Shown here piece by piece: positions 1,100-62,273 of a DNA stretch of 64,000 nucleotides; position 1 is the first letter of the stretch; each line of letters begins with the position of its first letter. The DNA lies in the NCBI RefSeq assembly GCF_036013955.1, contig NZ_CP107903.1, positions 186,001-250,000 on the forward strand, given 5' to 3'. The translations under genes were made by a program, and so were the position numbers. The DNA comes from Streptomyces sp. NBC_00459 (GTDB lineage Bacteria; Actinomycetota; Actinomycetes; Streptomycetales; Streptomycetaceae). Below the pieces are notes generated by a model. That model had not been told where the DNA came from. It saw nothing but the letters and a program-made list of their open reading frames with translations, and did not search any database.

Positions 1100-1169
1100 C
1101 GCGTCCCCTCTGTCTCGGCTGCCGATGTCCGGGAGCCGGTCTTTCTTCCACTCGGCCTTTTCCTGGGTT

Positions 1170-1403
1170 TCACCTCGGCGGGCGCGCGTCGGAGCCGGAC
1201 TCCATGGCCGTGCGGAGACTGCGCGGTCGCATGTCGGTCCAGTTCTTCTCGATGTAGTCGAGACATTCCATGCGGCTCGCACCGTCCAGTACGACGTCCC
1301 ATCCCGGCGCCACGTCGAGATGTCCGGGCCACAGCGAGTGCTGCTCCTCGTCGTTGCGGAGCACTTTGTAGGCGCCGTCGGCCTCTTCGAAGGGATTGGA
1401 CAT
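1170..1403 (-). CDS. mbtH: MbtH-like NRPS accessory protein
   Basis: This 77-residue protein is of the MbtH family, small chaperones that bind adenylation domains of NRPSs and are often needed for their solubility and activity. The sequence shows the family signature in order: NPFEEADG at the start, then [12 protein letters not shown], and the closing [14 protein letters not shown]. Length is typical (60-80 aa). The start has a GAGGTG ribosome site six bases upstream. It sits between PKS3 and the NRPS that begins at 1099, so the likely partner is the adenylation domain of that NRPS, outside the window. The C-terminal extension (about 13 residues after MRPRSL) is variable and unremarkable. Confidence 0.97.
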
Positions 1404-1422: not shown

Positions 1423-1470
1423 AGTGGAATGCGAGCAGAATTTGAGTGGAATGACGAAGCTCAGTGGAAT
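1423..1470. repeat. Three spaced copies of AGTGGAAT around the PKS3 stop
   Basis: AGTGGAAT occurs at 1423-1430, 1445-1452 and 1463-1470 (ATTCCACT in the mRNA). The last copy is inside the final codons of PKS3 (ends SEFH) and includes its stop; the other two lie in the 57-bp gap before the MbtH gene. It looks like small tandem duplications of the PKS3 3' end. No function is implied by the sequence. Confidence 0.6.
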
Positions 1471-9950: not shown

Positions 9951-10005
9951 CGGTATCCATCCAGGAACAGCGGCGAACCGGCGGCACGGTCGGGGCGGGA
10001 GAGGA

Positions 10006-13000: not shown

Positions 13001-13209
13001 GGCTCGCTCTTGCGCTTCGACGCGTCGAAGACCCGTGCGAGCACGGATTCGCCCAGTTCCTCGGCGACCATGGCGTCGTAGCGGCGCAGCGCCGCGCCGA
13101 ACACCTCATCGCCTGCGAGGAGTTCCTCGCCCATCCGGTAGTACTGCGAGCCCTGGCCCGGGAACATGAAGACGACGGGCAGGGGTTGCGTGGGAGTGTC
13201 AACGGCCAT
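10006..13209 (-). CDS. Trans-acting acyl hydrolase / malonyl acyltransferase / enoyl reductase fusion (AH-AT-ER)
   Basis: This 1067-residue protein carries the discrete acyltransferase that loads the AT-less modules. Domain 1 (about 14-290) has FPGQGSQYYRMGEEL and IGCSLGEY (Ser near 107) and resembles the PedC-type acyl hydrolases that clear stalled chains. Domain 2 (337-614) has FPGQGSQRRGMG and the canonical VGHSLGEY (Ser near 423) of malonyl-CoA transacylases, with the partner His in SAPFHSRYM. Domain 3 (650-1060) is a PfaD-like FMN-dependent enoyl reductase (GSMYGGISGP, HVGCAGGMGTPEAAA, TGSVNQCSVEA). The start overlaps the PKS2 stop by 11 bp, implying translational coupling, with a GGGAG ribosome site upstream. 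No ER domain exists in the PKS proteins, so this ER must supply any enoyl reduction. Assignment of domain 1 as hydrolase rather than a second AT is by motif resemblance. Confidence 0.93.
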   Translation of the reverse strand: MAVDTPTQPLPVVFMFPGQGSQYYRMGEELLAGDEVFGAALRRYDAMVAEELGESVLARVFDASKRKSEPFTDTRFTHPAIVMIELALAETLRAAGVEPDYLIGCSLGEYAAATLSGSLDASDCMGLLVGQAAALRRGPRGGMLAVLAGPDVLDRVPALRECEVAARNHPGHFVVSGTEEAVVRAESALRAADVPHQRVAVEYGYHSALMAPVLAECRGALDRTRFAPPRIPWVSCVDGRLVERPGAEHFRRVVREPIEFERTMAAMRDRGDFLYLDLGPSGTLDNFVRGNAPPGTRSRSLSLLSPFGHDPAVLAKVRTLATRPPQTSRTPRKAQRMKVYGFPGQGSQRRGMGAELFERFPEQTAIADRVLGYSIRELCVEDPERRLGSTEFTQPALYVVSALAHLDRVAADPVPPDYLVGHSLGEYAALFAAGVYDFETGLRLVRRRGELMAASDGGTMAAVVGTDEATVERVLAEPGLDGLDLANLNAMDQFVLSGPVERIDAACAAFEAMGARTARLNVSAPFHSRYMRGAAEEFARFLDEFTLRPPAVPVLANVDARPYRPEALKETLAAQIVSPVRWTETVRSLMGQGDFEFVELGPGEVLTKLVARIRQRAEPLPAPVSRPDPAPRTAAPEVSPGIAVEADGLGARSFRERYGLRRAYLAGSMYGGISGPAMLRAAAKAGFLAFLGTAGLTLPEVDRQLRDLADDLGPDGILGANLLHRHGAPDEESALVDLFLRRGVDVVEASGFPLITPALVRFRLGGGRILAKVNRTDIAAEFLSPAPHRLVERLLAAGEITEAQARAAEDRPMADDLCVEADGGWLTGTADLPTLLPAVLRLRDATALPGQRVHVGCAGGMGTPEAAAVAFLLGAEFVLTGSVNQCSVEAATSSAVKDILQEAHEYDVTTAPWAEMFDLGARARYLRRGLLFPARAGKLYDLWRAHASPAPLDDATRTRLLDRYLGGETPAGAGPSADPRAELAAVCRGYAERGHRLAVTGDTRSTVDYLVHCGPAMGAFNQVVAGTTLQPWRVRTVEAIADTLMEGAAAHITDRLRAVGAAPPCPS

Positions 13210-16200
13210 GGCTCTGGGTCTCCCTGGTCGCAACGGCCCGGTAGTCGCTCCAGAAGGGCTGTGCGCCCGGCTCCGGCGCGCGGTGGTCGTGCCAGAAGAG
13301 CCCCGCATCGGGCACGGTGGGCTCAGCCGCCCCTCGGATGACGACCCTGCGGTCCCACTCGGGTCCCGGGAGCGGCGTCCGGGTGCCCCGGTGGCCTGCG
13401 GGAGCGGGGGCGAGCAGCAGGTGCGCGTTGGTGCCGCCGTCGGCGAAGCAGCTCACTGCGGCGGCCTCGGCCGAGGCCGGCCACGGCTCGGCCAGCCGCG
13501 GGAAGTACAGCGACGAGGCATCGAGGTCGAAGTGCTCCAGTGGTTGCTGCCCGGAGCCGAACGGCGCCTGCTGCCGGTGGTGCAGCATCAGGACGACCTT
13601 GATGAACGAGGCGATCCCCTCCGCGGCCAGGGGGTGGCCGATGTTCGGCTTGACCGAGCCGAGGGCCACCGGCTGCGCCGAGCCCGCCCGGTAGACCGTC
13701 TCCACCGCCTTGAGTTCCAGCAGGTCGGTGACGGCCGAGCCGGAGCCGTTGGCCTCGACCCATCCGACGTCCTGTGGGGACAGGCCGCTGCGCGTCAGCG
13801 CCTCGGTCATCACCTCCTTGTGCGCCTCCAGGTTGGGGGTGGCGGGGCCGGCGGTCCGGCCGTCGTTGTTGACGGCGATGCCCTTGAGGACCGCGAGCAC
13901 CTGGTCTCCGTCCACCCGCGCCCTGTCGAGAGGTTTGAGGACGACGACGCCGATCCCCTCGCCGAGCACCAGGCCGGCGCCCCGACGGTCGAAGACATGG
14001 AACTCCGCACCGGGGTTGAGCAGTCCGCGCTGTCCGAACACCTGGTAGGGCCGGTCGTCGGTGAGCAGGCTGACCCCCGCGACCACTGCCGACTCGATGT
14101 CGCCCGAGCGCAGTGCCTGGGCGGCGGCGTCCATCGCCACGAGGGCGGAGGAACAGGCGGTGTCGACCACCAGGCTCGGCCCCCGGAAGTCGAAGAACTG
14201 GGAGACGTTGGCGGAGAGGTAGTTCTGGCCGGTGACCACCACCGGGTTCGCCGCCCGCTCCAGGCGCGCGGTGTCCGGGGTGTGCGTGGCCCTCCCGCCG
14301 ACGTACACCCCGATCCGGCGGCCCTTCAGCTCGGCGGGCTCGTATCCGGCCTGGTGGACGGCGTTGCTCACCTCCTCCAGGAGCAGCAGCGCCTGCGGAT
14401 CCATGGCCGCGACATCCGCCGGGGACAGCAGGAAGGACTCCGGGTCGAAGCCCAGCACGTCCGGCAGCAGGCCGGCGTGGTATCCGAGCGGCCTGCCGAA
14501 ACGCCGGTCGGACACCGGGCCCAGTGCCGACCGGCCCTGCCGCAGCAGTTCCCAGTACTCCTCGGCGGACCGGGCCCCGGGGAACCGGCAGGACAGGCCG
14601 ATCACCGCGATGTCCGCGGTGGTGCGGGCCGGCTGCGCGACAGTCGCCGCAGGGTGCGGGGCGGGGACCACGGCGGCCCGTGCGGCGGAGGTCGGCGTGT
14701 CCGCTGCGGCCGCACCGCCGAAGGCCGCCAGCAGGTTCTCCTCGTGCCTCTCGGCGAGGTACTCGGCGAACCCGTCGGCCGTCGGGTGTTCCAGGAGTGC
14801 CGACGGGTCGAGGGACACGTCGAGTCGCTTGGCGGCGGTCTGGACGAGCTGGGCGATCAGGATCGAGTCGATGCCGTAGTCCTGGATCGGCACATCGCCC
14901 GCCAACGCGGCCCGGTCGAACCGCAGTTCCGCCGCGAGCCGGTCCAGCAGCCAGGAGGCCGCCGACCCGACCGCTCCTCGAACCGCCTCGGCAGTGGGCC
15001 CGGGGTCTGCTCCGGAGCGCGTCGCGGATGCTGCGGTCTCCGGCGCCGCATCTGTGGTGGGCGGGCGGTGGTCCGTCAGCCGGCCCGGACGCCAGTCCGC
15101 GTCCGGACGCACCACCGCGGGCAGCACCACCCGGGCGCCGCTCGCGATCGCCCGTTCCAACAGGACGAGTCCCTGCTCGTCGGAGAGCGCGGCCAGTCCG
15201 GAGGACCGGTAGGCGGCGCTGCGCACCTCGCCCGCACCGGTGTCCTTCCAGCTCGGCCACTGCACGCTGACCAGTGGCAGCCCGTAGGGGCGTGCCTCGG
15301 CGACCGCGTCCAGGTAGGCGTTGGCCAGCGCGTAGTCGCTCTGGCCGACGGCGAGCGCGGGCACGGCAGCGGCGACCGAGGAGTACAGCACGAACAGGCT
15401 GAGCGGTTCGGCTCGGAAGCACTCCAAGAGCGCGTCGAGGCCGAACACCTTCGGGCCGATCACCCGGGCCATACCGGTCTGCGGCTTGCGTACGAAGGCG
15501 GGGTTGTCGAAGTCGGTGAATCCGGCGCTGTGGATCACCCCACCGATCGGCCCCAGTCTCAGCTTCACCTCCGCGAGGGTCTTGGCCAGGGTCTGCCTCT
15601 CCTCCAGCGGCACGGCGCAGACCTCCAGCTCGACCCCCTGGTCGGCCAGCTCGGCGAGCGGGCGCAGCCTCCGGCCGAGTGCGGTGTCCGCGGCGATGTG
15701 CGTGGCCCATTCGGCCTGCGGCGGCAGTTCCTCGCGGCCGGTGAGCACCAGCTTGCGGACGCCGTGCCGGGCGACGAAGTGCCGGGCGGTGAGCAGTCCG
15801 ATCCCGCGCGTCCCACCGGTCACCCACAGCACGTGGCCGTCCGGGAAGCGCAGGGTGCCGGCCTGCTGGTCCGGCAGTTCGCGCAGCTCCGCGCGGTGCC
15901 GGACGCCGTCTCGGTAGGCGACGTCGGCCGGTAGCCCGGCGACGCCGAGTTCGTCGGTCACCCACCGGCACAGCTGTTCGTCCGAGGTGTGCCGCTCCAC
16001 GTGGACATGACGGGAACGCACATGGCGGTACTCGCTCTGGAGCATCCGGTAGAGGCCGGCCCGGGCCGCGCCGCCGAGGCCGGGCGTGCCGGTTTCGGTG
16101 TCCCGGGAGACCAGCAGGGCGCACAGTCCGCCGCGGCCGTGGTCGACGAGGCGCTGCAACCAGCCCAGCCAGGGCGTCAGCCGCGCGTGGTCGGCATCGG

Positions 16201-19200
16201 GGTCGGGATCGGCGCAGCCTGCCAGGTCGACCACGGCGTCGAAGCGGTCCCAGCGGGTGGCCGGGTCGGCGAGGTCGGCGGCGAGCCGGTCGTGGGTGAG
16301 CACCTCGGCCCGCGGCAGGGCGGCAGCGAGACGGAGGGCCAGTTTCTCCGTACCCGGTGCGGCCAGCACCGCCGTCCGGGCCGGGAATGCGGTGCGGTCC
16401 ACCGGGTCGGCGGGCACCCAGTGCCGGGTCAGCAGCGGACTCTTCGTGGTCCCGTCCGCGCCGAGGGCGGCCAGTTCTGCGTCTGCTGCGGCCAGCCGGA
16501 CCCGATCTCCGCCGAAGGGGTAGCCGGGCATTGCCACCCGGCGCGGCCGGCCCGTGGGATGCAGGGCCGTCCAGTCCACCGGCCGGCCCGAAGTCCACGC
16601 GGCGGCGTATCCGGCGAGGTCGTCCGCCGGCGGGCCGGCCGCGAGCGGCCTGCGCAGGTCCGCCACTCCCGTCCAGCTGTCGGCCGGTTCGGCGCCGGCT
16701 GCGAACTCCTCCAGCCGCTCGGCCAGTTCCGCGAGGTCGTGGAAGACCACCGCGAGCCGGTGCTCCATGGCCTCACGGCCCCACTGCAGAGTCCACGCGA
16801 CCTCCGCGGGCGCCGCCTGCGCACCCTCGGCGCGCAGGTGTACGGCCAGTCGGCGGGCCTGCGCGGTCAGCCGGTCGGCGTCGCGGGCGGAGAGCACGGC
16901 CAGCTGCGGACCGGCGGAGACGTCCTGGGGCCGCGGTTCGCCCAGGTACTCCTGCAGGACGAGACACGCGTTGGTACCACCCGCGCCGAAGGAGCTGACG
17001 CCTGCGGTCCTGGGCTGTGCCGTGCCGTCCGGGAGGACGCCACGAGGCCAGTCGGCGAGTTCGCGCTGGACACGGAACGGGGTTGCCGCGAAGTCGATGT
17101 CCGGGTTGAGCCGGTCCGCGTGCAGCGAGGGAACCAGCTCCCCGTGGCGCATCTGGAGCAGCACCTTGCTGACGCCCGCGATTCCGGCGGCGGCCTCGGC
17201 GTGCCCGATGTTGGACTTGACCGAGCCGATCGGCAACCGGTCGGGCAGGTCGTCGTGGAAGGCGCGCAGCATGCCGGAGACCTCGATCGGGTCGCCGAGC
17301 GCGGTGCCCGTGCCGTGGGCCTCCAGGTAGTCGAGGTCCGCGGGGCGCAGTCCGGCCCGGTCGAGCCCGGCCCGCAGCAGGTCGCCCTGTGCCCTCGGGC
17401 TGGGCGCGGTGAAACCCTTGGCCGCGCCCCCGTGGTTGACGGCGGAGCCCTTCACCACGGCCAGGATCCGGTCGCCGTCGGCGAGGGCCGCGTCGAGGCG
17501 CTTGAGGAGGACCGCGCCCGAGCCGTCGGCCGGGACGTATCCGGTGCCGCCCGCCCCGAAGCTCCGGCACCGGCCGTCCTCGGAGAGGAAACCGCGGGCC
17601 GCGAGCTGAAGGTATTTCACGGGGTGGCTGGAGATGTTGACACCGCCCGCGACCGCCGTGTCGCAGTCGCCGTTCCGGATGGCCAGGCAGGCCTGGTGGA
17701 TGGCGACGAGCGAGGAGGAACACATGGTGTCCACGGCGACGCTGGGCCCGGTGAAGTCGAAGAAGTACGACACCCGGTTGGCCACCGACGCGTACGACGA
17801 GGTGGGCGCGAGGCCGTTGCCGCGCAGCGCGTCCTGGACCCCGTACAGCTGGTAGTGGCCGTAGGCCAGGCCCACGAAGACTCCGGTGCGGGTGCCGCTC
17901 AGCCGATCGCGGGTGCAGCCGGCGTCCTCCAGCAGATGCCAGACCGTTTCGAGGAAGACCCGCTCCTGGGGGTCGGTGTGCTCGGCGTCGAGCCGCGACA
18001 TGCGGAAGAACAGCGGGTCGAAGCGGTCGGCGTCGCGGACGAAGCCTCCCCACTTGCCGTACGTCCTGCCGGTTGCCGACCTGTCTGCGTCGTAGAACCT
18101 GCTGTGGTCCCAGCGGTCTGCCGGTACCTCCTCGACGCTGTCCCGGCCGGCCCGCAGGTTCCGCCAGAACTCGTCGAGGTCGTCCGCCTCCGGGTAGCGG
18201 CCCGCGACACCGATGATCGCGATGTCGTCGCCGGGGCGGACCGCGGGAACCGCCTCCGTGGCCGGTTCGGCGGCGGCCGTGGCGGGTGACCCGGCCGCGG
18301 CGAACACGTCGGGGTGGTCGGCGGCCAGGTGGTCGGCCAGTTCCCGGACCGTCACGTACTCGAACAGCAGTGTCTTGGAGAGCGGGCCGACGTGTTCTTC
18401 GAGCTGCCGGATCAGGTTGAGGGTGATCAGGGAGTCCACGCCGTAGTCCCCGAAGGGCTCCGTGAGGGCGATCTCCCGTTCGGGGAGCTTCAGTTCGGCC
18501 GCCAGCAGGCGCAGGACCAGGTGCTCGGCCCGGTCCCGTACGTCACCGGCGGGCGCCTCGGCCGGCCGGGTGGCGGTCTTCGGGTGCGTGGACGTGCCAT
18601 TGAGGGCAGTGAGAACGCGCTCCGGGGAACCGGGGGTGAGCAGCAGTCTCGGTGCGTCGCCCGCCAGGGCGCGTTCCAGGGCGTCCAGAGCCGGCCCGGT
18701 CGGCACGGGACGCATGCCGAGCGTCCGGGCCATGTGCTCCTGGGCCGAGGCGTCGATCCTCATGGCACCCTCGGCCCAGACCGGCCAGGCGGCGGCAAGG
18801 GTACGGCCCCGCCGGTCGCCTTGGCGGCGCTGCCGTTCCCGCTGCTCGGCGAAGTGGTCGAGGAACGCGTTGGCGAAGGCGTAGTCGGTCTGGCCGACGT
18901 TGCCGAAGACCGCCGCGGCCGAGGAGAACGCCACGAAGTAGTCGAGCGGTTCGTCGAGCGTCGCCTCGTCGAGCAGCACGGTGCCGCGCACCTTGGCGGC
19001 CAGCACCACCTCGGCGTCGGCGCGTTCCTTGCCCCGCAGCAGGCCGTCCCGGAGCACCCCGGCTGCGTGCACGACGCCGCTGACCGAGCCGTGGGACCGG
19101 CGGGCCCCGGCGATGAGCGCACGCACCTCGGCCGGGTCGCCGACATCGGCGCGCACGATGTCCGCGCCGATGGCGAGCGCACGGTCACGGGCCTCGGGGC

Positions 19201-22200
19201 CGGGAACGCTGCGGGCGGCCAGCACGATCCCGCCGTCGGACACGCCTGCGGTGTGGCGTACGGCGGCGATGTGCTCGGCGAGCAACAGGCCGAGGGCGCC
19301 GGTGCCGCCCGTGACAATGTGCGCACCGGAGCCGGTGAACGCCGATCCGGCACGGGCCGGCAGACTCACCTGCCGCCAGCCGCGGCGCATGCGGCCCTCG
19401 GCACCGACCCGGACCTCGGCCTCGCGCTCGGCCCCGAGTTCGGCGATCACCGCGTCGGTCAGGCGGCCCGACTCGACCGCCAGTACGCCGAAGTCCACCA
19501 GCGGATGCTCCAGGCGCACCGAGCGGCCGAAGGCGGCCATCGCTTGCTGGGCCGGGGAGGCGGCCGGGTCGGGGTGGACGAAGAGGTAGCCGAGCGGGCC
19601 GCGCCGCTCCCGCTGCCAGGCCTGCAGGAAGGCCGTGGCCGCGTGGAAGCCGTACTCCACCGCATCGTCCGATTCCGGGTGGTCGCCGGCCACATGCACC
19701 ACGTGCACCGGGCCCGCCGGGAGGGCGCGGACAGCGGCCTCGGCGTCGAATCCGGCGGACACTTCGATGCGCCGGGCGGCCAGTCCGGCCGCCGCCAGTG
19801 CGGCGTTCAGGTCGGCGCCCCGCGAACCGGCGTCCAGTACCAGGACGGATGCCGGCTCAGCACGGCGGATCGCCGGGGCCGGCTGCCAGTCCGGTGCGAA
19901 GGCGGCCACCGGCTCCGCTGCGGGCGGCGCGGGGATCTCCGCTGCCGGCGGCCCGGGATGAGGCAGCGCGGCGACCGGCCCAGGGGTCGACGGGTCGGGC
20001 TCCGGAGCGATCCAGTGCCGGATCCTGGCGAAGGGATGGCCGGGGAGGTGCACACGGCGTACGGCCTCGCCCGCGTGCGGGACCGGCCGTTCGACCTCGG
20101 CGCCCCGGAGCCAGTCGGCCGCGACCGTGGCCAGGTCCTGCCGCGTGGCGGCCGGGCGCGCGGCGGGACTCCGCTCGGCCCGCCCGGTGCGTACGGCGGA
20201 CGGGCGGCCGTCGAGGTACGCGTCGAGTTCGGCGTGCACCCCGGAGGTGCTGTCGGCGACGACAGCGAGGCGGTGGGTCATCGGGTCGCGGCCCGCCCAG
20301 AGGGTGTACGCGAGGTCGCCCGCCCGGATCTCGTGCTCCTGGAGGTGGTCGGCGAGCCGTCGGGCGGAGGACCGCAGCGCCTCGGGGGTGCGGGCGGAGA
20401 GGACGAACAGCCGTTCCCCCGTCAGCTCCTCGCGGGTGTCGGGTGCTTCCGGTTCCTCCAGTACGACGTGCGCGTTGGCGCCGCCGAAGCCGAAGGAGCT
20501 GACCCCGGCGCGGCGCGGCGCGGGCCGCCCCGCCGCGTCGACGGGGTGAGGCCACGGCGTGGTCTGCGAGGCGACGTACAGCGGCGAGCCGGCCAGTTCC
20601 AGATAGGGGTTCTGTTCCTGGAAGTGCAGGCTGGCGGGGATGGTGCGGTGGCGCATCGCCAGGACGGTCTTGATCAGGCCGGCGATGCCTGCCGCCGCCT
20701 CCAGATGGCCGATGTTGGTCTTCACCGAGCCGACCGCGCAGGTCGGCGACTCGGGTACCGGCAGGCCGGCCGAGCCGTACAGCTCGGCGAAGGCGTCGCG
20801 CAGACCGGCCGTCTCGATCGGGTCGCCGAGCGCGGTCCCCGTACCGTGTGCCTCGATGTATCCGACCGTGGCCGGGTCGATGCCGGCGCCGCGGTAGGCC
20901 TCGACGAGCAGCGCGGTCTGGGCACCGGGATTCGGGGAGGTCAGCGACGTGGTCCGGCCTCCGTGGTTGACGGCGGCGGCCTTGATCACCGCGTCCACCG
21001 GATCGGCGTCGCGGACGGCTTCGGTCAGCTTCTTCAGTACGACGACCCCGACACCCTCGCCCCGGACATAGCCGTTGGCACTCGCGTCGAAGGTCCGGCA
21101 CCTGCCGTCGGGGCTGAGCATCTCGCTCTTGCTCAGCGCCACATAGAGGTTGGGGCTGAGGATGAGACTGACCCCGCCGGCGATGGCCAGGTCGCACTCG
21201 CCGTCCCGCAGTGCCCGGACTGCGTGGTGGACGGCGGTGAGCGAACCCGAGCAGGCGGTGTCCACCGCCATGCTGGGCCCGCGCAGGTCCAGCAGGTAGG
21301 ACACGCGGTTGGGGATGACCGACAGTGCGGCGCCGGTGATCGTGTGGCCCTCGGTGGCCCGGCCCGCCGCGCGCTGGACGTCGACGTAGTCGGAGTTGGT
21401 GACGCCGATGAAGACACCGACCCTGCGGCCCGCCAGCGTCGACGGCGGGATTGCCGCGTTCTCGAGGGCCGCCCACACCGTCTCCAGCAGCAACCGCTGC
21501 TGCGGGTCCATCAGTTCGGCCTCGCGTGGCGAGATGCCGAAGAAGGCGGCGTCGAACTTGTCGACGTCCAGTACGAACCCTCCCCAGCGCGAGCGGGACT
21601 TCTCCTGCGTGCCGGAGTCACCGTCGTACGCCCGCCAGTCCCACCGCTCGGCCGGGATCTCCTCGATCAGATCGTGGCCGGCGAGGAGATGAGCCCAGTA
21701 GGCGTCCAGGTCGGCCGACTGCGGCAGTCTCGCGGCCATGCCGACGACGGCCACGTCCGTGGAGCGGGGGACGGCCGGGGCGGCCCCGGCAGCCGGGGCC
21801 GCCGTGACGGTTTCCGGCCGCCGGTCCGTCTCCCGGTCGGCGTCGGCGTGTCCGGCCGGTGTGGAAGCGGCAGGTGTGGGAGCGGCCGGTGCCGGGTCGT
21901 CACCGCCGTACCGGGCTCCCAGGGCGGCGCCGTGGTTGTCGGCAAGATGGCGGAGCAGCCGGGACAGGGTCGGGAAGCGGTAGAACGCCGTGGGGAGGAC
22001 CTCGGCACCCACCAGGTCGGACAGCTCCAGGCTCAGTTCCGTGAACCGGATGGAGTCGAGCTTGAACTGGCCGAACGGGATGTCCGGGTCGATCTGTTCC
22101 GGCGTCAGGCCCGCGGCACGGGCGACCATCGCGGCCACTTCCTCGGCCAGCCTTTCCGCGACCTCGCCGGAAGGGGCCTCGCCGGAGGGCACCTCGCCTG

Positions 22201-25200
22201 CCACCTGGACCGGATCCGGGACGGAGGGCGTCACCGGGCTCGGTGTGCGCGGGGTCCGATCGGTCCGGGCCGCCGGGCCGCCGGACAGGCCGGCCAGTGC
22301 CTGGCGGTCCAGGCCGCCGTCCGCGGCGCGGGGAAAGTCGTCGACCAGGACGATCTCGTCGAGGTGCAGGTGGGCCGGCAGCAGCTGCCGGACCAGTTCC
22401 GGCAGGGACGCGTCCGGGGGCATGCCCGGGTCTGCCTGGTAGAACCCCCGGAGAATCGTGCCGTCCTCGCCCTCACCTGCGACGACCACCATCCGCCGTA
22501 TCCCCGGCAGCCGGGCCAGGTTCGCCTCCACCTGACCGATCAGCGCCTCGTCGGCCCCGGTCCGGGGCATCGTCGGCCGCCGGACCCGCAGTTGGGCGAG
22601 ACTGCCCGCAACCGGCCGGCCTGCCGGCCTGGATGACCCGGCCGAGGCGACGGGCCGGTCCGGGTCCTCGATCAGCCCGGTGAGAACCGTGACGAACCGG
22701 TCGGCGATGGCGGCGGCCGTGCTCGGTTCGAACAGCTCCCGGTCGTACTTGACCGTGAACAGGAAGTCGCCCTCCCCCTCGACGATCTCCAGCGTGAGGT
22801 CGAACTCGCCTTCCTGGTGGACGCCGCCGACCATCCCGTGGACAAGCCCCGCGTGCTCCTGCGGCCGTACCCAGTTCTGGTAGTAGAAGGCTGCCCGGAA
22901 GAGGTCGGGGCCGGTGAGCCGGCCCGCCTGCCGAAGCTGCTCGATCAGCGTGATCAGCGGATACTCGCCGTGTTGCAGAGCGGCGAGGGTGTCCCGGTGC
23001 ACCTCGGCGACCACCGATCGGAACGCGTGGTCCAGCGGCACACGGCCGTCGATGACGACCATGTTCATGAAGCAGCCGAGCGTGTCGTCGAACCGGTCTC
23101 CGGGGCGTCCGGCCGTCGGGGTGCCGACGAGTATCCGGTCCTGGTCGCCGTAGTGACGCAGGACCGCGTAGTAGCCGGCGAGCATGACGCTGAACAGCGA
23201 CACCCGTTCCGCTGCGGCGAACGCCCTGGCTCGGGCGACCAGCGCCGCGTCGATCCGCCCTTCGACGCTGCCCCCGAGGTAGCGGGGCTCCGTCGGCCGG
23301 GGCCGGTCCGTGGGCAGGGACAGCTCGGGCACCGGCCCGGCCACCCGGTTCAGCCAGTAGTCGCGCAGGCGGACTCCTTCCGGGCCCGCCAGCAGGTTCC
23401 GCTGCCACGCCACGAAATCGGCGAAACCGGCGGCGGGCGGGCTCGGCGTCCAGTCCCTGCCCGCGGCCCGGGCACGGTAGGCGTCCTCCAACTCCCGCAG
23501 GACCACACCGATGGAGACACCGTCGAAGACGATGTGGTGGACGACGGCCAGCAGTGCGCGCCGGCCGTCGGGCAGGCTGTAGAGCGTCACCCGCAGCAGG
23601 GGTCCGCCCGCCAGGTCGAACGGACGGGCGCGCTCGGCGCGCATCCGCTCACGCAGCGCCTCCTCGTCGGCGCTGTCGAGGCGTTCGTGCCTGAGGTCCG
23701 CCTCCTGACGCACTGCCACGTGCTGCGCCGGCTGCCGGTTCTCGACCGTCACCGTCGTGCGCAGCGCCTCGTGCCGGTCGACCAGGTCCTGCAGTGTGCC
23801 ACGCAGTACCTCGGCGTCGACCTGCGGATCGAGCCAGAGCGCCAGGGGGACGTTGTAGGCGGCGTTGTCCGGCGCGACGCGGTTCACGATCCACAGCGCG
23901 CGCTGCCCCTCGGACAGCGGACCACCGATCGCACGAGCGGGTGTCGGTCGGGGGCCGGGTGCGACGGTGGGAGGCGGCTCGGGGGCGGCGTCCGGTACGG
24001 GGCCGAACATCTCCTGGTCCGTGTAGTGCCGGGACAGCTCGCGCAGGGTCGGGTGCTCGTAGAAGTCACCGAGCGACACCGTGACGCCGAACTCCTCGGT
24101 GATTCCGGAGACGATCTTCATGCCGGTGAGTGAGTCGAACCCGTAGTCGGCCAGCGCGCGGTCGGGATCCGGGGCCTCGTCGAGCTTCAGGGCCCGCGCC
24201 ACGATCGAGGCCAGTCGGGCCGTCAGCGCCTCGGTGGGGGCCTGCTCCGTCCGGGCCGGTTCCGGCACGGGAGCGGAGGACACCGGCGCCGCACCGGCCT
24301 GCGGTACGGCGGCCTCCTCTGCGCCGAGCCGGCCGCCGTTCTCCGCGACGATGACGTGCTGGCCTCGCGGCCGGCTGTCCGGGCCACGGCCGTCCGCCAC
24401 CACGACCTGCTCGAAGCCGCCCTCACGCAGCAGCCGCTGCCAGGTGGCCGGAACGGTCAGGGGCGAGTCCGGCAGGCGCAGTTCCCCGTCGTCGAAGAGC
24501 CACCAGCCGTCCAGCACCCCGCCCACGACCGTGGTGTGGTCCCAGACCTCCGTGAGTTCGTTGAGGACGAGCCAGCCGTCCGGCCTCAGCAGCGCCTTCG
24601 CCTTCGCGAGCGTGGCCCGCAGGTCGCGCGTCGCGTGCACCACGTTGGTGGCGAGCACCATGTCGTACGACCCCGGGGTGAACCCCTGTGCCTCGATGCC
24701 CTTCTCCAGGTCGAGCACCTGGTACTCCAGGATGCCCAGGTCGCCGAAGACTCCGGTCAGGCGTTCCTCCGCGTTCTCCAGGAACCGCGGCGAGATGTCG
24801 GTGAAGCAGTAGGTGACCTGGCCGGCGTGGGGTGCCAGCACCGGCAGGACCGTCTCCGTGGTGGCCCCGGTGCCGGCGCCGAGTTCGACTACGCGCAGCC
24901 GCTCGCCGGGCGCGAGCCGTGCCAGTCGCTGACCGAGGTAGGACCGCACGGCGGCGCCGACCAGTTCGTTGAACGAGTCGGAGAGCGCGTTGGCCTTGTA
25001 GAAGCTCTCCACCAGTGCCATGGACGAGCCGGGGAACATGATCTCGGTGGCACGGATCTCGCCGCGCAGGATCTGTGGGTACGAGCGCAGGAACAGCCGG
25101 GTCAGAGTGACCGTGGCGGCCAGTTCGGGATGGTCCGCGGCGATCCGGTCGAACTCCGGGTCCAGTGCCTCGGGGCTGGGGTTCTGTGTGGGGGCGCCGG

Positions 25201-28200
25201 GCAGGAGACGGCACCGTTCACCGTCGAACTCCACGTAGCCCGCGTTGCTCAGGATGTTCAGCAGCGCGCCGTACAGGCGCTGGTACTTCGGCTGGATGCC
25301 GAGGCTGCTCGGCAGTTCCCGGCGGTCGAAGCCTTCCCCGGGGTCGAGCAGCACACCCATCCGGCGGAAGACACCGAGCACGGCGGGGCGGCACAGGGCC
25401 GCGAGCCGGTGGTGACCGGTGAGAACGCTGTCCACGTCGTCGGCGCGTCCGGCGCGGGAACGCTCCAGTTCACCCGCCACGCGCGCCAGGGACGGGCCGT
25501 CGGCCGGCGCCGCGGGCGGTGCAGAGACGGTGCCCAGTGCCGCCAGAGCGAAGTCGCGGGCGCTGATCGGCATCACCTGCGCCAGCGGGTTGCCCAGGAT
25601 CCGGTGGAAGGCCGACAGCCCGTCGGCCACGGACAGTTCGCCGATGCCCAGGCCGTGGAAGATCTCGCGCAGACCGGGCCGGGCGCCCGAGCCGATTCCG
25701 CCCCAGTAGCCCCAGTTGACGACCCGTACGGGGTACCCGCGCCGTCCGCCCAGGTGCAGGGCGTAGGCGTCCTGCAGGGCGGCGGCACAGCTGTAGGCGC
25801 CGTTGCCGGCGGTGCCGGCGAACGCGCCCACCGAGGAGAAGAACGCGAGGAAGTCGAGCGGCTGGTCCCCGAAGACCTGGTCGATCGCCACGCTGCCATC
25901 GGTCTTCACCATGAGCGCGGCGCGGAACGCCTCGTCGTCGAGTGCCGAAAGCGGGCTCGGCGCAAAGGTCATACCCGCGTGGATGACGCCGTGGACCGCG
26001 CCGAAGCGGGCGCTCACCTCGGCGGCGGCTGCTCGCAGCGCCTCGGTGTCGCAGCAGTCGGCCCTCAGGTGGAGCACCTCGCCGCCGAGCCGGCGCGCCC
26101 GGTCGGCGCAGGCGCGCTGGTCGGCGTCGAGCGCGTTGCGGCTGATCCACACGACCCGGGCCCGGTAGCGCTCCGCGAGGTGGAGGGTGAGTTCCCGGCC
26201 GATGCCGCCGGCGCCGCCGACGATCACGTACACACCGCGGTCCCGGAAGGGCGGCAGCTGTGGCTCGGGCAGGTCGACCGGTTCCAGCGCGGTGGTGTAG
26301 CGGGTCCCGTAGCGCAGGAGCACCGTCCGCCCGGAGGAGTCGCACGGCTCGGCCAGCACGGTGGCCAGCAGCCGGTCCCATGCGGCGTCGTCGGCCGTCT
26401 CGCGCTGCGCGAAGTCGAGGCAGACGGTCTTGAGTTCGGGGGTTTCCTTGGGCAGCACCCGAGCCAGTCCGTGCAGACCGGCGGCGAACGGGTTGGTGAC
26501 CGGCGCGTCGAACGCTCCCACGGCGTCGTTGGTCACGACCTTCAGCCGTACTCGGCGCCCGTCACCGGCGGCCAGGTGCCCGGCGGTCCGGAACAGGGCG
26601 AGGATTCCGCGCCGGTAGCCGTCCTCCAGCGATCCGGCACCGCCACTGGCCGAGAGCCGGATGCCGCCGAGGTGGTAGACCCGGTCGACGGGGCCCGCCT
26701 GGGCCAGTTCCGCGACCAGGTCGTCGCGGTCCAGGTCGACGAGCCGCACGTCGTCGTCGCGGTGGTGTCCGGCGATGCCGTCGGCCAGCCGCGCGGCGTC
26801 GGCCGAGCTGAGGATCAGCACCCTGAGAGGGCCCGCGGTGGGCTCGTCACGAGCGATGGCGGGTCGCTGCGCGGGCACCCAGGTCGGGCGGTAGCAGACC
26901 ATGGGCGACGGTTCGGCGCCCGTCCGCGCCGATGTGATCGGCGCAAGGTCGGAGGGCAGGCGTTCGGGGCGCGGCGGTATCTCCGGCAGCCAGTAACGCT
27001 TCCGGGCGAAGGGGTAGGTGGGCAGGCCGATGCGGCGGGCGGTGTCCTCGGCGCGCAGCTCGGACCAGTCGACCTCGGCGCCCTGCGTCCAGTGCTCGGC
27101 CAGCGTGCGCAGATCCCGCTGCCGCTGGGCCCGGCTCACCCGCTCCCGGTCCTCCTCCGAAGGCCGGTAGCGGGCCGCAACCCGGCCGGTGGTCGCTCCC
27201 GCCGCCGAACCCTCGGCACCGAACGCACGCAACAGCGCTCCGGCCTCGGCCAGGTCGCCGGCGGGGAACGCCAGCCTGGCGGCCATCGGCGTACGACCGG
27301 TCTGCAGGGTGTGGGCGACGTCGCGAAGCAGGATCCGCGACGGCTCGGCCTCGGGGCCGGAGTCGGCCAGCAGCACACTGAGAGCCCGCACCGTCGTGCC
27401 GCCGGTCAGCAGACCCGGGGTCGGCCCCCTGCCGAACTCCGCTTCGAGCTTCTCGGCGAGGACCGTCAGCTCGGCCGCGCGGAATCCGTACTCGCCCAGC
27501 GGCGTGACCGGGTCGAGGTCGTCGGCGCCGACCTGGAGCGCCTCGGCGGCCAGCCGCAGGCACGCGGCCTCGACCCGCGTGTCCCGCACGGCCGGCCCGC
27601 CCGGGGGCGGCGCGGCGGTGCCGGCCGTGTCCAGGAAGTCGGCGAGCCGGGCGGCCGACTCACGGAGCCGGACCTCGTCCCGTGCGGACAGGACGATCAG
27701 TTCCGGACCGGCCCCGCTCCGCGGCGGGAGCGGCGCGGCCTCGTCCGCCGCGAGGTACTCCTCCACGATCAGGTGTGCGTTGGCGCCGCCGCCGCCGAAG
27801 GAGCTGATTCCGGCCCGCCGGGGCAGTTCGACGCGCTGTCCGTCGGCGCGGACGACGACCGGACGCTCCCAGGGCTCCGGCTCCTGCGGGACGTAGAACG
27901 GCCCGTCGGCGAAGTCGATGTCGGGGTTGAGCTCGGCCGAGTGCAGCGACGGCGCGATCGTCCGGTGCCTGAGCTGCATCAGCACCTTGGTCAGGCCCGC
28001 GATGCCCGCGGCGGACTCCAGGTGACCGATGTTCGACTTCACCGAGCCGACCGCGCACCGCGCGAGCCCCTGCTCAAGGCCGTCGTCGATCCGCGTGCGG
28101 AACGCCTTGACCAGGCCGGAGATCTCGATCGGGTCGCCCAGCGGCGTGCCGGTCCCGTGCGCCTCGACACAGCCGACGGTCCGTGGGTCGATGCCGGCCC

Positions 28201-29131
28201 GGCGCAGTCCGGCCGTGATCACCTCCGCCTGGGCCTGCTGGCTGGGCACCGTGTAGCCCCCGGTCTTGCCTCCGGAGTTGACGGCGGAGGCCCGGATGAC
28301 GCCGTGGATCCGGTCGCCGTCGGCCACCGCGCGCGACAGCGGCTTGAGCAGTACGGCGCCCACGCCTTCGCCGTCCACGAAACCGTCCGCGCCCAGGCCG
28401 AAGCTGCGGCAGCTGTCCCCCGGTGAGGTCATTCCGGCGTCGGAGAGGGTCCGCAGGTGCGAGGTGTCCAGGATCAGGTTCACGCCGCCGACGATCGCTG
28501 TCGAGCAGTCCCCGGCACGCAGGCTCTCGCAGGCCAGATGGACGGCGGTGAGGGAGGACGAGCACGCCGTGTTGACGGTGAGGCTGGGGCCACGCAGGTC
28601 CAGGATGTAGGAGACCCGGTTGGCGATGGACCAGTGGCTGGAGCGGGCGCTGTTGGCCACGCCGAGACCGGCGGCGCGTCCGCCCATCCACTCGTAGTCG
28701 CTGTGCATCACCCCGACGAACACACCGACCGGGTTGCTCTGCTCGGCGAGCCGGCCCGGCGGCCAGCCCGCGTCCTCCAGCGTCGCCCACACGGTCTCCA
28801 GGAAGACCCGTTCCTGCGGGTCCATGCTCTCGGCCTCCACGGGGGCGATACCGAAGAACAGCGGGTCGAACGCGTCCGCGTCGTCGATCAGCCCCGCCCA
28901 CCAGCGGCGGTCCGGCAGATCGGCGCCGGTCTCCGGCTGTCCGTGCCCGCGTCCGGGCAGGAACTCCCCGATGCAGTTCTCGCCGCCGTGCACGCGGGTC
29001 CACAGCTCTTCGGGGGTCGCGGCGCCGGGATACCGGCCTGCCAGCCCGATGACCGCGATCCCCTCCGGAGCCTGGGGTGCGCCACCCGCCTCCCGCAGGA
29101 GTCGCAGCAGTTCCTTGCGCTTGTCATCCAT
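13199..29131 (-). CDS. PKS2: trans-AT PKS with embedded C-domain/A-stump (5310 aa)
   Basis: This AT-less assembly-line protein reads as follows: N-terminal docking helix 1-20; KS4 20-461 (NTACSSSL, EAHGTGT); Ser-less ACP-like insert 514-588; KR4 748-1208; C-methyltransferase 1235-1598 (ELGAGTGATT); ACP4 1631-1711 (GFDS); NRPS-type C domain 1731-2171 (HHIVFDG); C-terminal stump of an adenylation domain 2181-2284; carrier 2325-2404 (KLDSIRF); KS5 2458-2895; KR5 3071-3508 (DYAFANAF); ACP5 3535-3608; KS6 3636-4064; KR6 4238-4681 (DYALANAY); ACP6 4721-4804 (GIDS); terminal KS7 4838-5244 with Cys (TACSSAL) but EANGSGS in place of HGTGT. The ATG at 29131 follows GGGAGGAA, better than the upstream in-frame start. 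The terminal KS0 pairs with the N-terminal dehydratase-like domain of PKS3, a split dehydrating bimodule. KR4 lacks the YxxxN Asn. Confidence 0.94.
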   Translation of the reverse strand: MDDKRKELLRLLREAGGAPQAPEGIAVIGLAGRYPGAATPEELWTRVHGGENCIGEFLPGRGHGQPETGADLPDRRWWAGLIDDADAFDPLFFGIAPVEAESMDPQERVFLETVWATLEDAGWPPGRLAEQSNPVGVFVGVMHSDYEWMGGRAAGLGVANSARSSHWSIANRVSYILDLRGPSLTVNTACSSSLTAVHLACESLRAGDCSTAIVGGVNLILDTSHLRTLSDAGMTSPGDSCRSFGLGADGFVDGEGVGAVLLKPLSRAVADGDRIHGVIRASAVNSGGKTGGYTVPSQQAQAEVITAGLRRAGIDPRTVGCVEAHGTGTPLGDPIEISGLVKAFRTRIDDGLEQGLARCAVGSVKSNIGHLESAAGIAGLTKVLMQLRHRTIAPSLHSAELNPDIDFADGPFYVPQEPEPWERPVVVRADGQRVELPRRAGISSFGGGGANAHLIVEEYLAADEAAPLPPRSGAGPELIVLSARDEVRLRESAARLADFLDTAGTAAPPPGGPAVRDTRVEAACLRLAAEALQVGADDLDPVTPLGEYGFRAAELTVLAEKLEAEFGRGPTPGLLTGGTTVRALSVLLADSGPEAEPSRILLRDVAHTLQTGRTPMAARLAFPAGDLAEAGALLRAFGAEGSAAGATTGRVAARYRPSEEDRERVSRAQRQRDLRTLAEHWTQGAEVDWSELRAEDTARRIGLPTYPFARKRYWLPEIPPRPERLPSDLAPITSARTGAEPSPMVCYRPTWVPAQRPAIARDEPTAGPLRVLILSSADAARLADGIAGHHRDDDVRLVDLDRDDLVAELAQAGPVDRVYHLGGIRLSASGGAGSLEDGYRRGILALFRTAGHLAAGDGRRVRLKVVTNDAVGAFDAPVTNPFAAGLHGLARVLPKETPELKTVCLDFAQRETADDAAWDRLLATVLAEPCDSSGRTVLLRYGTRYTTALEPVDLPEPQLPPFRDRGVYVIVGGAGGIGRELTLHLAERYRARVVWISRNALDADQRACADRARRLGGEVLHLRADCCDTEALRAAAAEVSARFGAVHGVIHAGMTFAPSPLSALDDEAFRAALMVKTDGSVAIDQVFGDQPLDFLAFFSSVGAFAGTAGNGAYSCAAALQDAYALHLGGRRGYPVRVVNWGYWGGIGSGARPGLREIFHGLGIGELSVADGLSAFHRILGNPLAQVMPISARDFALAALGTVSAPPAAPADGPSLARVAGELERSRAGRADDVDSVLTGHHRLAALCRPAVLGVFRRMGVLLDPGEGFDRRELPSSLGIQPKYQRLYGALLNILSNAGYVEFDGERCRLLPGAPTQNPSPEALDPEFDRIAADHPELAATVTLTRLFLRSYPQILRGEIRATEIMFPGSSMALVESFYKANALSDSFNELVGAAVRSYLGQRLARLAPGERLRVVELGAGTGATTETVLPVLAPHAGQVTYCFTDISPRFLENAEERLTGVFGDLGILEYQVLDLEKGIEAQGFTPGSYDMVLATNVVHATRDLRATLAKAKALLRPDGWLVLNELTEVWDHTTVVGGVLDGWWLFDDGELRLPDSPLTVPATWQRLLREGGFEQVVVADGRGPDSRPRGQHVIVAENGGRLGAEEAAVPQAGAAPVSSAPVPEPARTEQAPTEALTARLASIVARALKLDEAPDPDRALADYGFDSLTGMKIVSGITEEFGVTVSLGDFYEHPTLRELSRHYTDQEMFGPVPDAAPEPPPTVAPGPRPTPARAIGGPLSEGQRALWIVNRVAPDNAAYNVPLALWLDPQVDAEVLRGTLQDLVDRHEALRTTVTVENRQPAQHVAVRQEADLRHERLDSADEEALRERMRAERARPFDLAGGPLLRVTLYSLPDGRRALLAVVHHIVFDGVSIGVVLRELEDAYRARAAGRDWTPSPPAAGFADFVAWQRNLLAGPEGVRLRDYWLNRVAGPVPELSLPTDRPRPTEPRYLGGSVEGRIDAALVARARAFAAAERVSLFSVMLAGYYAVLRHYGDQDRILVGTPTAGRPGDRFDDTLGCFMNMVVIDGRVPLDHAFRSVVAEVHRDTLAALQHGEYPLITLIEQLRQAGRLTGPDLFRAAFYYQNWVRPQEHAGLVHGMVGGVHQEGEFDLTLEIVEGEGDFLFTVKYDRELFEPSTAAAIADRFVTVLTGLIEDPDRPVASAGSSRPAGRPVAGSLAQLRVRRPTMPRTGADEALIGQVEANLARLPGIRRMVVVAGEGEDGTILRGFYQADPGMPPDASLPELVRQLLPAHLHLDEIVLVDDFPRAADGGLDRQALAGLSGGPAARTDRTPRTPSPVTPSVPDPVQVAGEVPSGEAPSGEVAERLAEEVAAMVARAAGLTPEQIDPDIPFGQFKLDSIRFTELSLELSDLVGAEVLPTAFYRFPTLSRLLRHLADNHGAALGARYGGDDPAPAAPTPAASTPAGHADADRETDRRPETVTAAPAAGAAPAVPRSTDVAVVGMAARLPQSADLDAYWAHLLAGHDLIEEIPAERWDWRAYDGDSGTQEKSRSRWGGFVLDVDKFDAAFFGISPREAELMDPQQRLLLETVWAALENAAIPPSTLAGRRVGVFIGVTNSDYVDVQRAAGRATEGHTITGAALSVIPNRVSYLLDLRGPSMAVDTACSGSLTAVHHAVRALRDGECDLAIAGGVSLILSPNLYVALSKSEMLSPDGRCRTFDASANGYVRGEGVGVVVLKKLTEAVRDADPVDAVIKAAAVNHGGRTTSLTSPNPGAQTALLVEAYRGAGIDPATVGYIEAHGTGTALGDPIETAGLRDAFAELYGSAGLPVPESPTCAVGSVKTNIGHLEAAAGIAGLIKTVLAMRHRTIPASLHFQEQNPYLELAGSPLYVASQTTPWPHPVDAAGRPAPRRAGVSSFGFGGANAHVVLEEPEAPDTREELTGERLFVLSARTPEALRSSARRLADHLQEHEIRAGDLAYTLWAGRDPMTHRLAVVADSTSGVHAELDAYLDGRPSAVRTGRAERSPAARPAATRQDLATVAADWLRGAEVERPVPHAGEAVRRVHLPGHPFARIRHWIAPEPDPSTPGPVAALPHPGPPAAEIPAPPAAEPVAAFAPDWQPAPAIRRAEPASVLVLDAGSRGADLNAALAAAGLAARRIEVSAGFDAEAAVRALPAGPVHVVHVAGDHPESDDAVEYGFHAATAFLQAWQRERRGPLGYLFVHPDPAASPAQQAMAAFGRSVRLEHPLVDFGVLAVESGRLTDAVIAELGAEREAEVRVGAEGRMRRGWRQVSLPARAGSAFTGSGAHIVTGGTGALGLLLAEHIAAVRHTAGVSDGGIVLAARSVPGPEARDRALAIGADIVRADVGDPAEVRALIAGARRSHGSVSGVVHAAGVLRDGLLRGKERADAEVVLAAKVRGTVLLDEATLDEPLDYFVAFSSAAAVFGNVGQTDYAFANAFLDHFAEQRERQRRQGDRRGRTLAAAWPVWAEGAMRIDASAQEHMARTLGMRPVPTGPALDALERALAGDAPRLLLTPGSPERVLTALNGTSTHPKTATRPAEAPAGDVRDRAEHLVLRLLAAELKLPEREIALTEPFGDYGVDSLITLNLIRQLEEHVGPLSKTLLFEYVTVRELADHLAADHPDVFAAAGSPATAAAEPATEAVPAVRPGDDIAIIGVAGRYPEADDLDEFWRNLRAGRDSVEEVPADRWDHSRFYDADRSATGRTYGKWGGFVRDADRFDPLFFRMSRLDAEHTDPQERVFLETVWHLLEDAGCTRDRLSGTRTGVFVGLAYGHYQLYGVQDALRGNGLAPTSSYASVANRVSYFFDFTGPSVAVDTMCSSSLVAIHQACLAIRNGDCDTAVAGGVNISSHPVKYLQLAARGFLSEDGRCRSFGAGGTGYVPADGSGAVLLKRLDAALADGDRILAVVKGSAVNHGGAAKGFTAPSPRAQGDLLRAGLDRAGLRPADLDYLEAHGTGTALGDPIEVSGMLRAFHDDLPDRLPIGSVKSNIGHAEAAAGIAGVSKVLLQMRHGELVPSLHADRLNPDIDFAATPFRVQRELADWPRGVLPDGTAQPRTAGVSSFGAGGTNACLVLQEYLGEPRPQDVSAGPQLAVLSARDADRLTAQARRLAVHLRAEGAQAAPAEVAWTLQWGREAMEHRLAVVFHDLAELAERLEEFAAGAEPADSWTGVADLRRPLAAGPPADDLAGYAAAWTSGRPVDWTALHPTGRPRRVAMPGYPFGGDRVRLAAADAELAALGADGTTKSPLLTRHWVPADPVDRTAFPARTAVLAAPGTEKLALRLAAALPRAEVLTHDRLAADLADPATRWDRFDAVVDLAGCADPDPDADHARLTPWLGWLQRLVDHGRGGLCALLVSRDTETGTPGLGGAARAGLYRMLQSEYRHVRSRHVHVERHTSDEQLCRWVTDELGVAGLPADVAYRDGVRHRAELRELPDQQAGTLRFPDGHVLWVTGGTRGIGLLTARHFVARHGVRKLVLTGREELPPQAEWATHIAADTALGRRLRPLAELADQGVELEVCAVPLEERQTLAKTLAEVKLRLGPIGGVIHSAGFTDFDNPAFVRKPQTGMARVIGPKVFGLDALLECFRAEPLSLFVLYSSVAAAVPALAVGQSDYALANAYLDAVAEARPYGLPLVSVQWPSWKDTGAGEVRSAAYRSSGLAALSDEQGLVLLERAIASGARVVLPAVVRPDADWRPGRLTDHRPPTTDAAPETAASATRSGADPGPTAEAVRGAVGSAASWLLDRLAAELRFDRAALAGDVPIQDYGIDSILIAQLVQTAAKRLDVSLDPSALLEHPTADGFAEYLAERHEENLLAAFGGAAAADTPTSAARAAVVPAPHPAATVAQPARTTADIAVIGLSCRFPGARSAEEYWELLRQGRSALGPVSDRRFGRPLGYHAGLLPDVLGFDPESFLLSPADVAAMDPQALLLLEEVSNAVHQAGYEPAELKGRRIGVYVGGRATHTPDTARLERAANPVVVTGQNYLSANVSQFFDFRGPSLVVDTACSSALVAMDAAAQALRSGDIESAVVAGVSLLTDDRPYQVFGQRGLLNPGAEFHVFDRRGAGLVLGEGIGVVVLKPLDRARVDGDQVLAVLKGIAVNNDGRTAGPATPNLEAHKEVMTEALTRSGLSPQDVGWVEANGSGSAVTDLLELKAVETVYRAGSAQPVALGSVKPNIGHPLAAEGIASFIKVVLMLHHRQQAPFGSGQQPLEHFDLDASSLYFPRLAEPWPASAEAAAVSCFADGGTNAHLLLAPAPAGHRGTRTPLPGPEWDRRVVIRGAAEPTVPDAGLFWHDHRAPEPGAQPFWSDYRAVATRETQSHGR
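22270..23950 (-). other. C domain followed by a truncated adenylation domain inside PKS2
   Basis: These are residues about 1731-2284 of PKS2. The condensation domain is full length with HHIVFDG (about 23508-23545) and the tail core sequences VGTPTAGRPGD and GCFMNMVVI. The roughly 400-residue adenylation core that should follow is missing; only the small C-terminal subdomain remains (GIRRMVVVAGE to DGGLDRQAL). In the A10 position the catalytic Lys of NGKxDR is replaced by Leu (GGLDR, about 22302-22325), so the stump cannot activate an amino acid. A serine-bearing carrier follows, then KS5. Either an adenylation domain loads this carrier in trans, or the C domain performs another acyl transfer, or the unit is skipped. 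Confidence 0.85.
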
Positions 29132-29209
29132 GACGTTCCTCCCGCATGCCGCACGGCACACGCCGTGTCCCCAGCCCCGCCGGGCGTTCCGTTCCGGCCT
29201 TCCGCATGG

Positions 29210-47347
<18,138 letters not shown>

Positions 47348-55488: not shown

Positions 55489-55704
55489 TTCGTCCTTCTG
55501 GCGAAGCGGGGCGGGTGCAGGTGCGGGGCGCGGGCGGGCCGAGGACGGCTCGATGAGTGACATTCGCGACCGCCGCCCCCGGCCCTTCCTCCTGCTGATT
55601 CAGAGGCGGGATCGGCATGCGCTGCCCGGCAACGGCGCCGCGACGGACGGTGTGATGCCGGAACAGCCCGTCAGTCCGTTGGTCGGCGGGATCAGGGTAG
55701 GCCG

Positions 55705-59183: not shown

Positions 59184-59247
59184 TCCGCACCTCCTGTGAT
59201 GTGTCGTGCCGTGCATCGAGCTGTCAGGGCTCCCCCGTACGGAGCAC

Positions 59248-62212: not shown

Positions 62213-62273
62213 TGGACGGCGGAGGGAGCTCCGTGGCGCGGGGCCGGCGCGATGCGCGTGCGGCCGGCTGTCG

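Follow-up and report, generated by a model that had tools for sequence, protein, structure and literature searches.

The window, a 64,000-nucleotide stretch of the Streptomyces sp. NBC_00459 genome (contig NZ_CP107903.1, positions 186,001 to 250,000), carries on its minus strand most of a trans-AT PKS-NRPS cluster (Table 1). PKS2, which harbors the module analyzed here, spans 5320 amino acids when read from a GTG at position 29161; its likely start is the ATG at 29131, which fits the database copy (P0005, 5310 aa) and the corresponding protein of Streptomyces sp. QTS52 (P0011). Within the modular PKSs, AT matches were obtained for the loading AT of PKS1 only, leaving the elongation modules AT-free, and the discrete protein with two AT domains likely serves in trans. 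The loading AT, located at the N-terminus of PKS1 (44348-47347), reads GHCIG with a cysteine at the nucleophile position, the usual AT nucleophile motif being GHSxG. The 2-oxoacid dehydrogenase genes next to PKS1 likely provide the starter unit and are also kept in SID12501 (91-96%) and S. coffeae (68-88%); this gene set goes with the AT-ACP loading didomain, which stands where a formyl-glycine loader would be. The downstream NRPS closes with a terminal C domain, and no thioesterase family match was found in it. The second A domain of S. cacaoi finds its closest match elsewhere than in the second A domain of this NRPS (L009:13147-15798, genome positions 179147-182400). A second AT-AT-NMO-like protein is encoded at L009:9815-14482 (genome positions 175815-180482), kept in SID12501 and partly in S. 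coffeae, and, of the solved structures, PksD is the nearest to one of its AT domains (210 bits). On the far side of PKS1, an alpha-L-rhamnosidase and an alpha/beta-hydrolase (52214-55563) adjoin the cluster; as no counterpart of either was found in the ~8 kb read beside the SID12501 cluster, both probably lie outside of it. Positions 58101-63617 hold a folate/one-carbon run comprising a chorismate-binding enzyme, a THF dehydrogenase/cyclohydrolase, a formyltransferase with ACT domain, and MTHFR-like and GcvT-like proteins.

Table 1 Genes of the cluster and elements of the PKS2 module lacking an adenylation core (window positions)
Feature	Position	Strand	Description
PKS1	29210..47347	(-)	6045 aa; AT-ACP loading, two KS-DH-KR-ACP modules, one KS-DH-KR-cMT-ACP module
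PKS2	13199..29161	(-)	KS4-KR-cMT-ACP4 / C-(A remnant)-ACP5 / KS5-KR-ACP6 / KS6-KR-ACP7 / KS7
Discrete protein with two AT domains	10006..13308	(-)	PF00698, two stretches; ER-like C-terminal part by eye
PKS3	1461..10142	(-)	DH-ACP-ACP-DH-KS8-KR-ACP8-KS9-ACP9
NRPS start	1..1282	(-)	C-A(Ser code)-PCP-C-A-PCP-C; leaves the window, ends at genome position 179147
2-oxoacid dehydrogenase E1 alpha, E1 beta and E2 genes	47414..50698	(-)	directly before PKS1
ACP4, donor carrier of the KR + C-methyltransferase module	24026..24217	(-)	PF00550, E 2e-17
Complete condensation domain	22643..23920	(-)	PF00668 profile positions 6-443 of 456, E 2.5e-88
HHIVFDG catalytic motif	23519..23539	(-)	same in all four gutted proteins
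Ala at acceptor-gate position (Arg2577 of fuscachelin C3)	23897..23899	(-)	alignment to 7kvw/7kw2
A-domain remnant, A8 region to A10 of C-terminal subdomain	22286..22597	(-)	PF13193 match and alignment
ACP5, acceptor carrier	21944..22141	(-)	PF00550, E 4e-10
KS5, glycine-type ketosynthase, Cys-His-His intact	20621..21757	(-)	profile match, alignment
KR of the module after KS5	18773..19327	(-)	no DH between KS5 and KR

The sixth module of the line has been gutted. An earlier note on this DNA had placed here, in order, ACP4, a complete condensation (C) domain, the tail of an adenylation (A) domain, a serine-bearing carrier and KS5, and profile searches confirmed both this order and its interval. 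No AMP-binding core was detected by profile search between the C domain and ACP5 of PKS2. What is left of the A domain is a remnant of ~100 residues, the sole family match of which, AMP-binding_C (PF13193, E 6e-4), scores 21.1 bits and thus below the cut-off of 24.5 bits. As the remnant begins at the A8 region, the A core has been removed and the small subdomain left behind. The A10 lysine is replaced in this remnant (GGLDR, within 22304-22321) and is lost from all four gutted proteins identified, with differing neighbors (GDVDR in QTS52, GGVDR in SID12501, DTVDR in S. coffeae). Inspection for a degenerate or X-type C domain found the HHxxxDG motif unbroken in 4/4 gutted proteins, and the phosphopantetheine serine of ACP5 (22052-22054, KLDSIRF, residue 2370) is kept in all of them. 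Gutted and intact carriers score alike against carrier models, and this scoring does not discriminate the carrier type of ACP5. An AlphaFold2 prediction of the C-remnant-ACP5 segment, computed from five sequences, reached a mean pLDDT of 57 and a pTM of 0.33 and was set aside.

The gutted order is present in four genomes, namely NBC_00459, Streptomyces sp. QTS52 (P0011), SID12501 (L044) and S. coffeae CA1R205 (L045). The PKS2 reading frame of NBC_00459 is open and its genome is assembled as one 9.76-Mb contig. Collapse of a repeat in one assembly, which the earlier note had listed for checking, is ruled out, since the three other genomes share the deletion. Across 392 genomes of the genus, the C-domain query retrieved 15 places at E <= 1e-75 in 13 genomes, NBC_00459 included; two of these are gutted (NBC_00459 and G323, which, like G392, shows the coordinates of SID12501 and is taken as that genome), and the other 13, distributed over 11 genomes, all display the order C-A-ACP-KS. 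Adding S. cacaoi and Fulvivirga, both found via C-domain similarity and both with an intact A domain, 15 of 15 related modules are intact at the same place, confirming that an A domain has really been lost. Four weaker C-domain matches (L048-L051, 26-36% identity) were left out of this count, and the modules of S. hilarionis (P0128) and of a Burkholderia MAG (P0139), chosen for their intact order, are examples only and stand outside of it. An initial homologue search was dominated by ordinary NRPSs, and the best 120 of its 853 matches were taken. All 17 intact modules harbor the A10 lysine and the code DILQ[LF]G[LM]IW, which we take to specify glycine. The spacer between C domain and carrier measures 538-567 residues in these 17 modules compared with 158-168 in the four gutted proteins. 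In the C-domain tree, the four gutted rows form one clade (100/100) beside the C domains of intact glycine modules; the phylogenetic check suggested earlier thus places them away from degenerate members. Judging from this distribution, loss of the A domain is derived and probably occurred once, in the ancestor of the four Streptomyces clusters, and the module likely inserted glycine before.

Selection on the individual parts of the module was estimated as dN/dS (Nei-Gojobori, 1000 codon bootstraps), with gutted values derived from three nucleotide sequences and given in the order NBC_00459/SID12501, NBC_00459/S. coffeae and SID12501/S. coffeae. The C domain yields values of 0.17 (0.10-0.27), 0.28 (0.21-0.37) and 0.31, ACP5 values of 0.16 and 0.21, both with wide intervals, and of 0.24, and KS5 values of 0.08, 0.17 and 0.19; for ACP4, the NBC_00459/SID12501 value is 0.07. 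The A remnant stands at 0.89 (0.41-2.47), 0.97 (0.60-1.59) and 0.70 (0.41-1.13), or at 0.62-0.97 with slightly different borders, and the linkers flanking the gutted module range from 0.34 to 1.47. Intact relatives display dN/dS of 0.17-0.28 for the C domain (nine pairs) and of 0.08-0.54 for the A tail (eight of these pairs). The intact pairs overlap and cannot count as independent, and in two of the eight the A tail is fairly loose as well (0.50 and 0.54). The A remnant is therefore freed from most constraint and drifts like a linker, whereas C domain, ACP5 and KS5 are under ordinary purifying selection, which argues that the C domain is still needed. This agrees with the earlier suggestion that the C domain remains in use in some way. 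The alternative of a dead scar, raised at the same time, applies to the A remnant, which behaves as one; for the C domain it is rejected on the basis of a dN/dS equal to that of intact relatives. Mean C-tree distances amount to 1.38 between the gutted and the main intact clade and to 0.95-1.76 among intact clades, and a burst of C-domain change following A-domain loss is not seen on this measure. In the C tree, the gutted clade nevertheless sits on a longer stem (0.49) than in the KS5 tree (0.16). Of 100 C-domain positions invariant in the other 15 modules, 14 changed in the gutted clade compared with 15 in one intact clade, and ACP5 changed more, at three of 14 such positions.

KS5 is nested in the tree within the KS clade that follows glycine modules. 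Of 165 positions that are invariant in the other 15 modules, the gutted clade differs at two, and the positions setting glycine-type KS5 apart from the other KSs of the cluster are all kept (11/11). Its best single solved KS is PksJ (4na1), which we take to be a protein making bacillaene, with the two-KS entry 7zma scoring higher only in sum. Behind KS5 the lines diverge. S. coffeae harbors a hybrid line (L124-L128), in which the same left half and the gutted module up to KS5 are followed by other PKS modules and a different NRPS with a Thr-like code; the gutted module has hence been retained ahead of two right halves that differ. A DH between KS5 and the next KR (18773-20620 in the window) is absent in NBC_00459, SID12501 and, judged by spacing, QTS52 and present in S. 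cacaoi and S. coffeae. Since the gutted S. coffeae line still has this DH, it was probably lost after the A core.

A structural feature of the C domain bears on what it might do without an A domain. In a crystal study of the fuscachelin C3 domain, Arg2577 is described as barring the empty carrier arm, and an Arg-to-Gly exchange at this gate as admitting the unloaded arm to the active site (PMC8097023). There, the gate arginine is also proposed to stop donor pass-through without elongation, put forward as a hypothesis and not as a result, and burkholdac is named as a case with a small gate residue (PMC8097023). By alignment to 7kvw and 7kw2, 19 of our 21 gutted and intact modules have Ala at the gate, one has Ser and one Gly; those with Ala include NBC_00459, QTS52, SID12501 and S. 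coffeae. An arginine occupies this position in 592 of 686 C domains used for comparison. This comparison set is not a random sample and consists of those C domains of database proteins returned by the homologue searches that fitted the pattern, P0139 included; it omits P0001, P0005 and P0011 as well as the NBC_00459, S. cacaoi, SID12501, S. coffeae and Fulvivirga rows. Because intact relatives share the small residue, the open gate would predate loss of the A core and could have made this loss survivable.

A stand-alone A domain that might load ACP5, the search for which had been advised in the earlier note, was not found in the cluster, the only A domains of which are the two of the downstream NRPS. 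From the contig start to position 557093, with the module at 208 kb, AMP-binding matches are confined to this NRPS, whose first A domain carries the code DVWHFSLVD (Ser) and whose second carries DVKDEAVGA, to which no amino acid was assigned. Likewise, the block conserved with SID12501 contains no A gene besides the NRPS, and the A matches listed on the SID12501 contig are the NRPS pair. In the whole genome of NBC_00459, a glycine code is absent among the 20 of 58 AMP-binding matches that were read, including all 17 matches listed against the S. cacaoi glycine A domain. The best of these is only 48% identical to the S. cacaoi domain and harbors a Ser-like code, so there is no sign of a moved A core, and its relocation within the genome is unsupported. 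In S. coffeae, glycine-coded A domains are located on other contigs, and further NRPS A domains lie ~25 kb before the cluster on the same contig, with codes outside those read. One locus on another S. coffeae contig (L176) comprises a formyltransferase-A(Gly)-PCP gene, assigned by eye, with a PtxD-like gene and then a KS gene behind it, and is probably part of a separate oxazole-type cluster. As it sits on another contig, beside the PtxD-like gene and PKS genes, this formyl-glycine loader provides no evidence for loading of ACP5 and was rejected as a candidate loader of the gutted module.

The explanation that we tentatively prefer, while granting it somewhat less than an even chance, is that the C domain and ACP5 relay the growing polyketide from ACP4 to ACP5 with no amino acid being added. 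The empty phosphopantetheine arm of ACP5 would enter the C domain through its acceptor tunnel, where no arginine gate bars the way, and at the HHIVFDG site the thiol of the arm would accept the acyl chain carried by ACP4; ACP5 would then feed KS5 for extension with malonate, and the A tail would act as a tether only. Even more tentatively, deletion of the A core may have converted a C domain that formed amides into one dedicated to acyl relay between two polyketide carriers and maintained by selection for thioester transfer in place of amide formation, enabled by a lineage already devoid of the gate arginine. Passage of the chain in this manner is consistent with an A core missing from a single gutted clade and intact, glycine-coded in relatives, with constraint on C domain, ACP5 and KS5 next to a linker-like A tail, with the small acceptor-gate residue, and with a cluster that contains no additional A domain. 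However, the gate is equally small in intact relatives with a glycine A domain and permits pass-through without showing it, and purifying selection also fits a C domain held for structure or one condensing an amino acid loaded in trans. Thioester relay by a C domain is, in the fuscachelin work, likewise a hypothesis and not a result (PMC8097023), and the A domains ~25 kb before the S. coffeae cluster also speak against it. Moreover, an N-acylglycyl substrate would fit the unchanged KS5 better than would a bare polyketide, probably dimethylated; some retuning of KS5 would be expected if the chain arrived without amino acid, and its constancy thus counts against the relay.

Since KS5 still looks glycine-type, with PksJ as best single solved KS, loading in trans is a close rival: an A domain elsewhere would charge ACP5 with glycine or an amino acid like it, and amide formation would remain the task of the C domain. 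We regard this as only slightly less likely than the relay. It would account for selection on C domain, ACP5 and KS5 alike, A-less modules served by a separate A-T protein are known (PMC8949500), and S. coffeae offers both glycine-coded A domains elsewhere and NRPS A domains on the cluster contig. Against it stand the lack of an A gene besides the NRPS in the cluster and in the SID12501-conserved block, the missing glycine code among the 20 of 58 AMP-binding matches read, and the different S. coffeae NRPS with its Thr-like code, which leaves no common loader in sight. Trans loading and a carrier-to-carrier shuttle had been offered side by side in the initial reading of the locus; of these, the former finds no A domain for the job in the cluster, yet is favored by the glycine-type KS5, and the latter is permitted by the gate. 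ACP4 might instead deliver straight to KS5, with C domain and ACP5 being kept for folding or spacing of the megaenzyme, which we consider unlikely. KS5 and the downstream KRs and KSs are constrained between NBC_00459 and SID12501, so that chains probably get through, and loss of catalysis alone need not raise dN/dS where the fold matters; nevertheless, the HHIVFDG motif and the carrier serine are unchanged in 4/4 gutted proteins, and constraint on the C domain equals that seen where the A domain is intact. A relic in decay, with the entire module being lost and none of its parts of any consequence, would agree with the linker-like evolution of the A tail and the A10 lysine lost in 4/4 proteins, but is highly improbable given a C domain and ACP5 under purifying selection as in intact lines and a C domain not unusually diverged (mean tree distance 1.38 compared with 0.95-1.76).

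In the literature consulted, passage of a chain through a C domain without elongation is an open question that rests on the gate-residue hypothesis. The modules described here constitute natural matched pairs, orthologous with and without an A core and with C domain and carrier under like selection, and make the relay question directly testable. They also show a way in which an amino acid could be dropped from an assembly line while its module stays, and point to oxazolomycin-like products without the glycine link. Titles and abstracts of open-licence literature yielded no description of an A-less module 6 in an oxazolomycin/phthoxazolin-type line.

Modules lacking an active A domain have precedents. 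For syringomycin, albicidin, ramoplanin and enduracidin, a separate A-T protein complements modules in which the A domain is missing or dead (PMC8949500). Like syringomycin SyrE/SyrB1 and albicidin, the gutted module has a C domain and a carrier, with the A domain absent or dead (PMC8949500); unlike these, its cluster contains no A-T partner gene. With the burkholdac C domain it shares a small residue in place of the gating arginine. In contrast to burkholdac, the C domain is located here between two PKS modules and has relatives with an intact A domain, and carrier-to-carrier transfer is only a proposal.

An orthologous cluster with an intact glycine module 6 is found in S. cacaoi NBRC 12748, whose PKS1, PKS2, PKS3 and NRPS align domain by domain with those of NBC_00459 (KS 62-81%). 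S. cacaoi differs in its starter, in an intact A6, in one DH, which the NBC_00459 module after KS5 lacks, and in an N-methyltransferase in the NRPS, assigned by eye. Its starter is a formyltransferase-A(Gly)-PCP unit (by eye) with the code DILQLGMIW (L095). The KS6 of NBC_00459 scores 625 bits against the solved domain 4ope, which is labelled NRPS/PKS and presumably is an oxazolomycin KS. The phthoxazolin study describes a cluster with a formyl-glycine loader, modules 2-5 with two methyltransferases and an NRPS module 6 for glycine, followed by KS0 and double-ACP modules; Ser and one further amino acid are incorporated, and a TE is absent. The oxazolomycin line is given there as architecturally identical over the first eight modules, module 7 excepted (PMC5764310). 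Compared with the lines of phthoxazolin (ptx) and oxazolomycin (ozm), NBC_00459 likewise displays KS-DH-KR steps, two methylating modules, a C module at position 6, a later double ACP, KSs with altered motifs (by eye), and an NRPS with Ser and no thioesterase match. It deviates from both in a module 6 without A core, i.e. one that is not C-A(Gly)-PCP, and in a starter made of AT-ACP and the E1/E2 set in place of the formyl-glycine (F-A-PCP) loader. By its predicted architecture, the cluster is a variant of the oxazolomycin/phthoxazolin lineage and, having neither a formyl-glycine loader nor a complete glycine module, not a strict member, with the S. cacaoi cluster appearing as the bridge between this line and the ptx and ozm lines.
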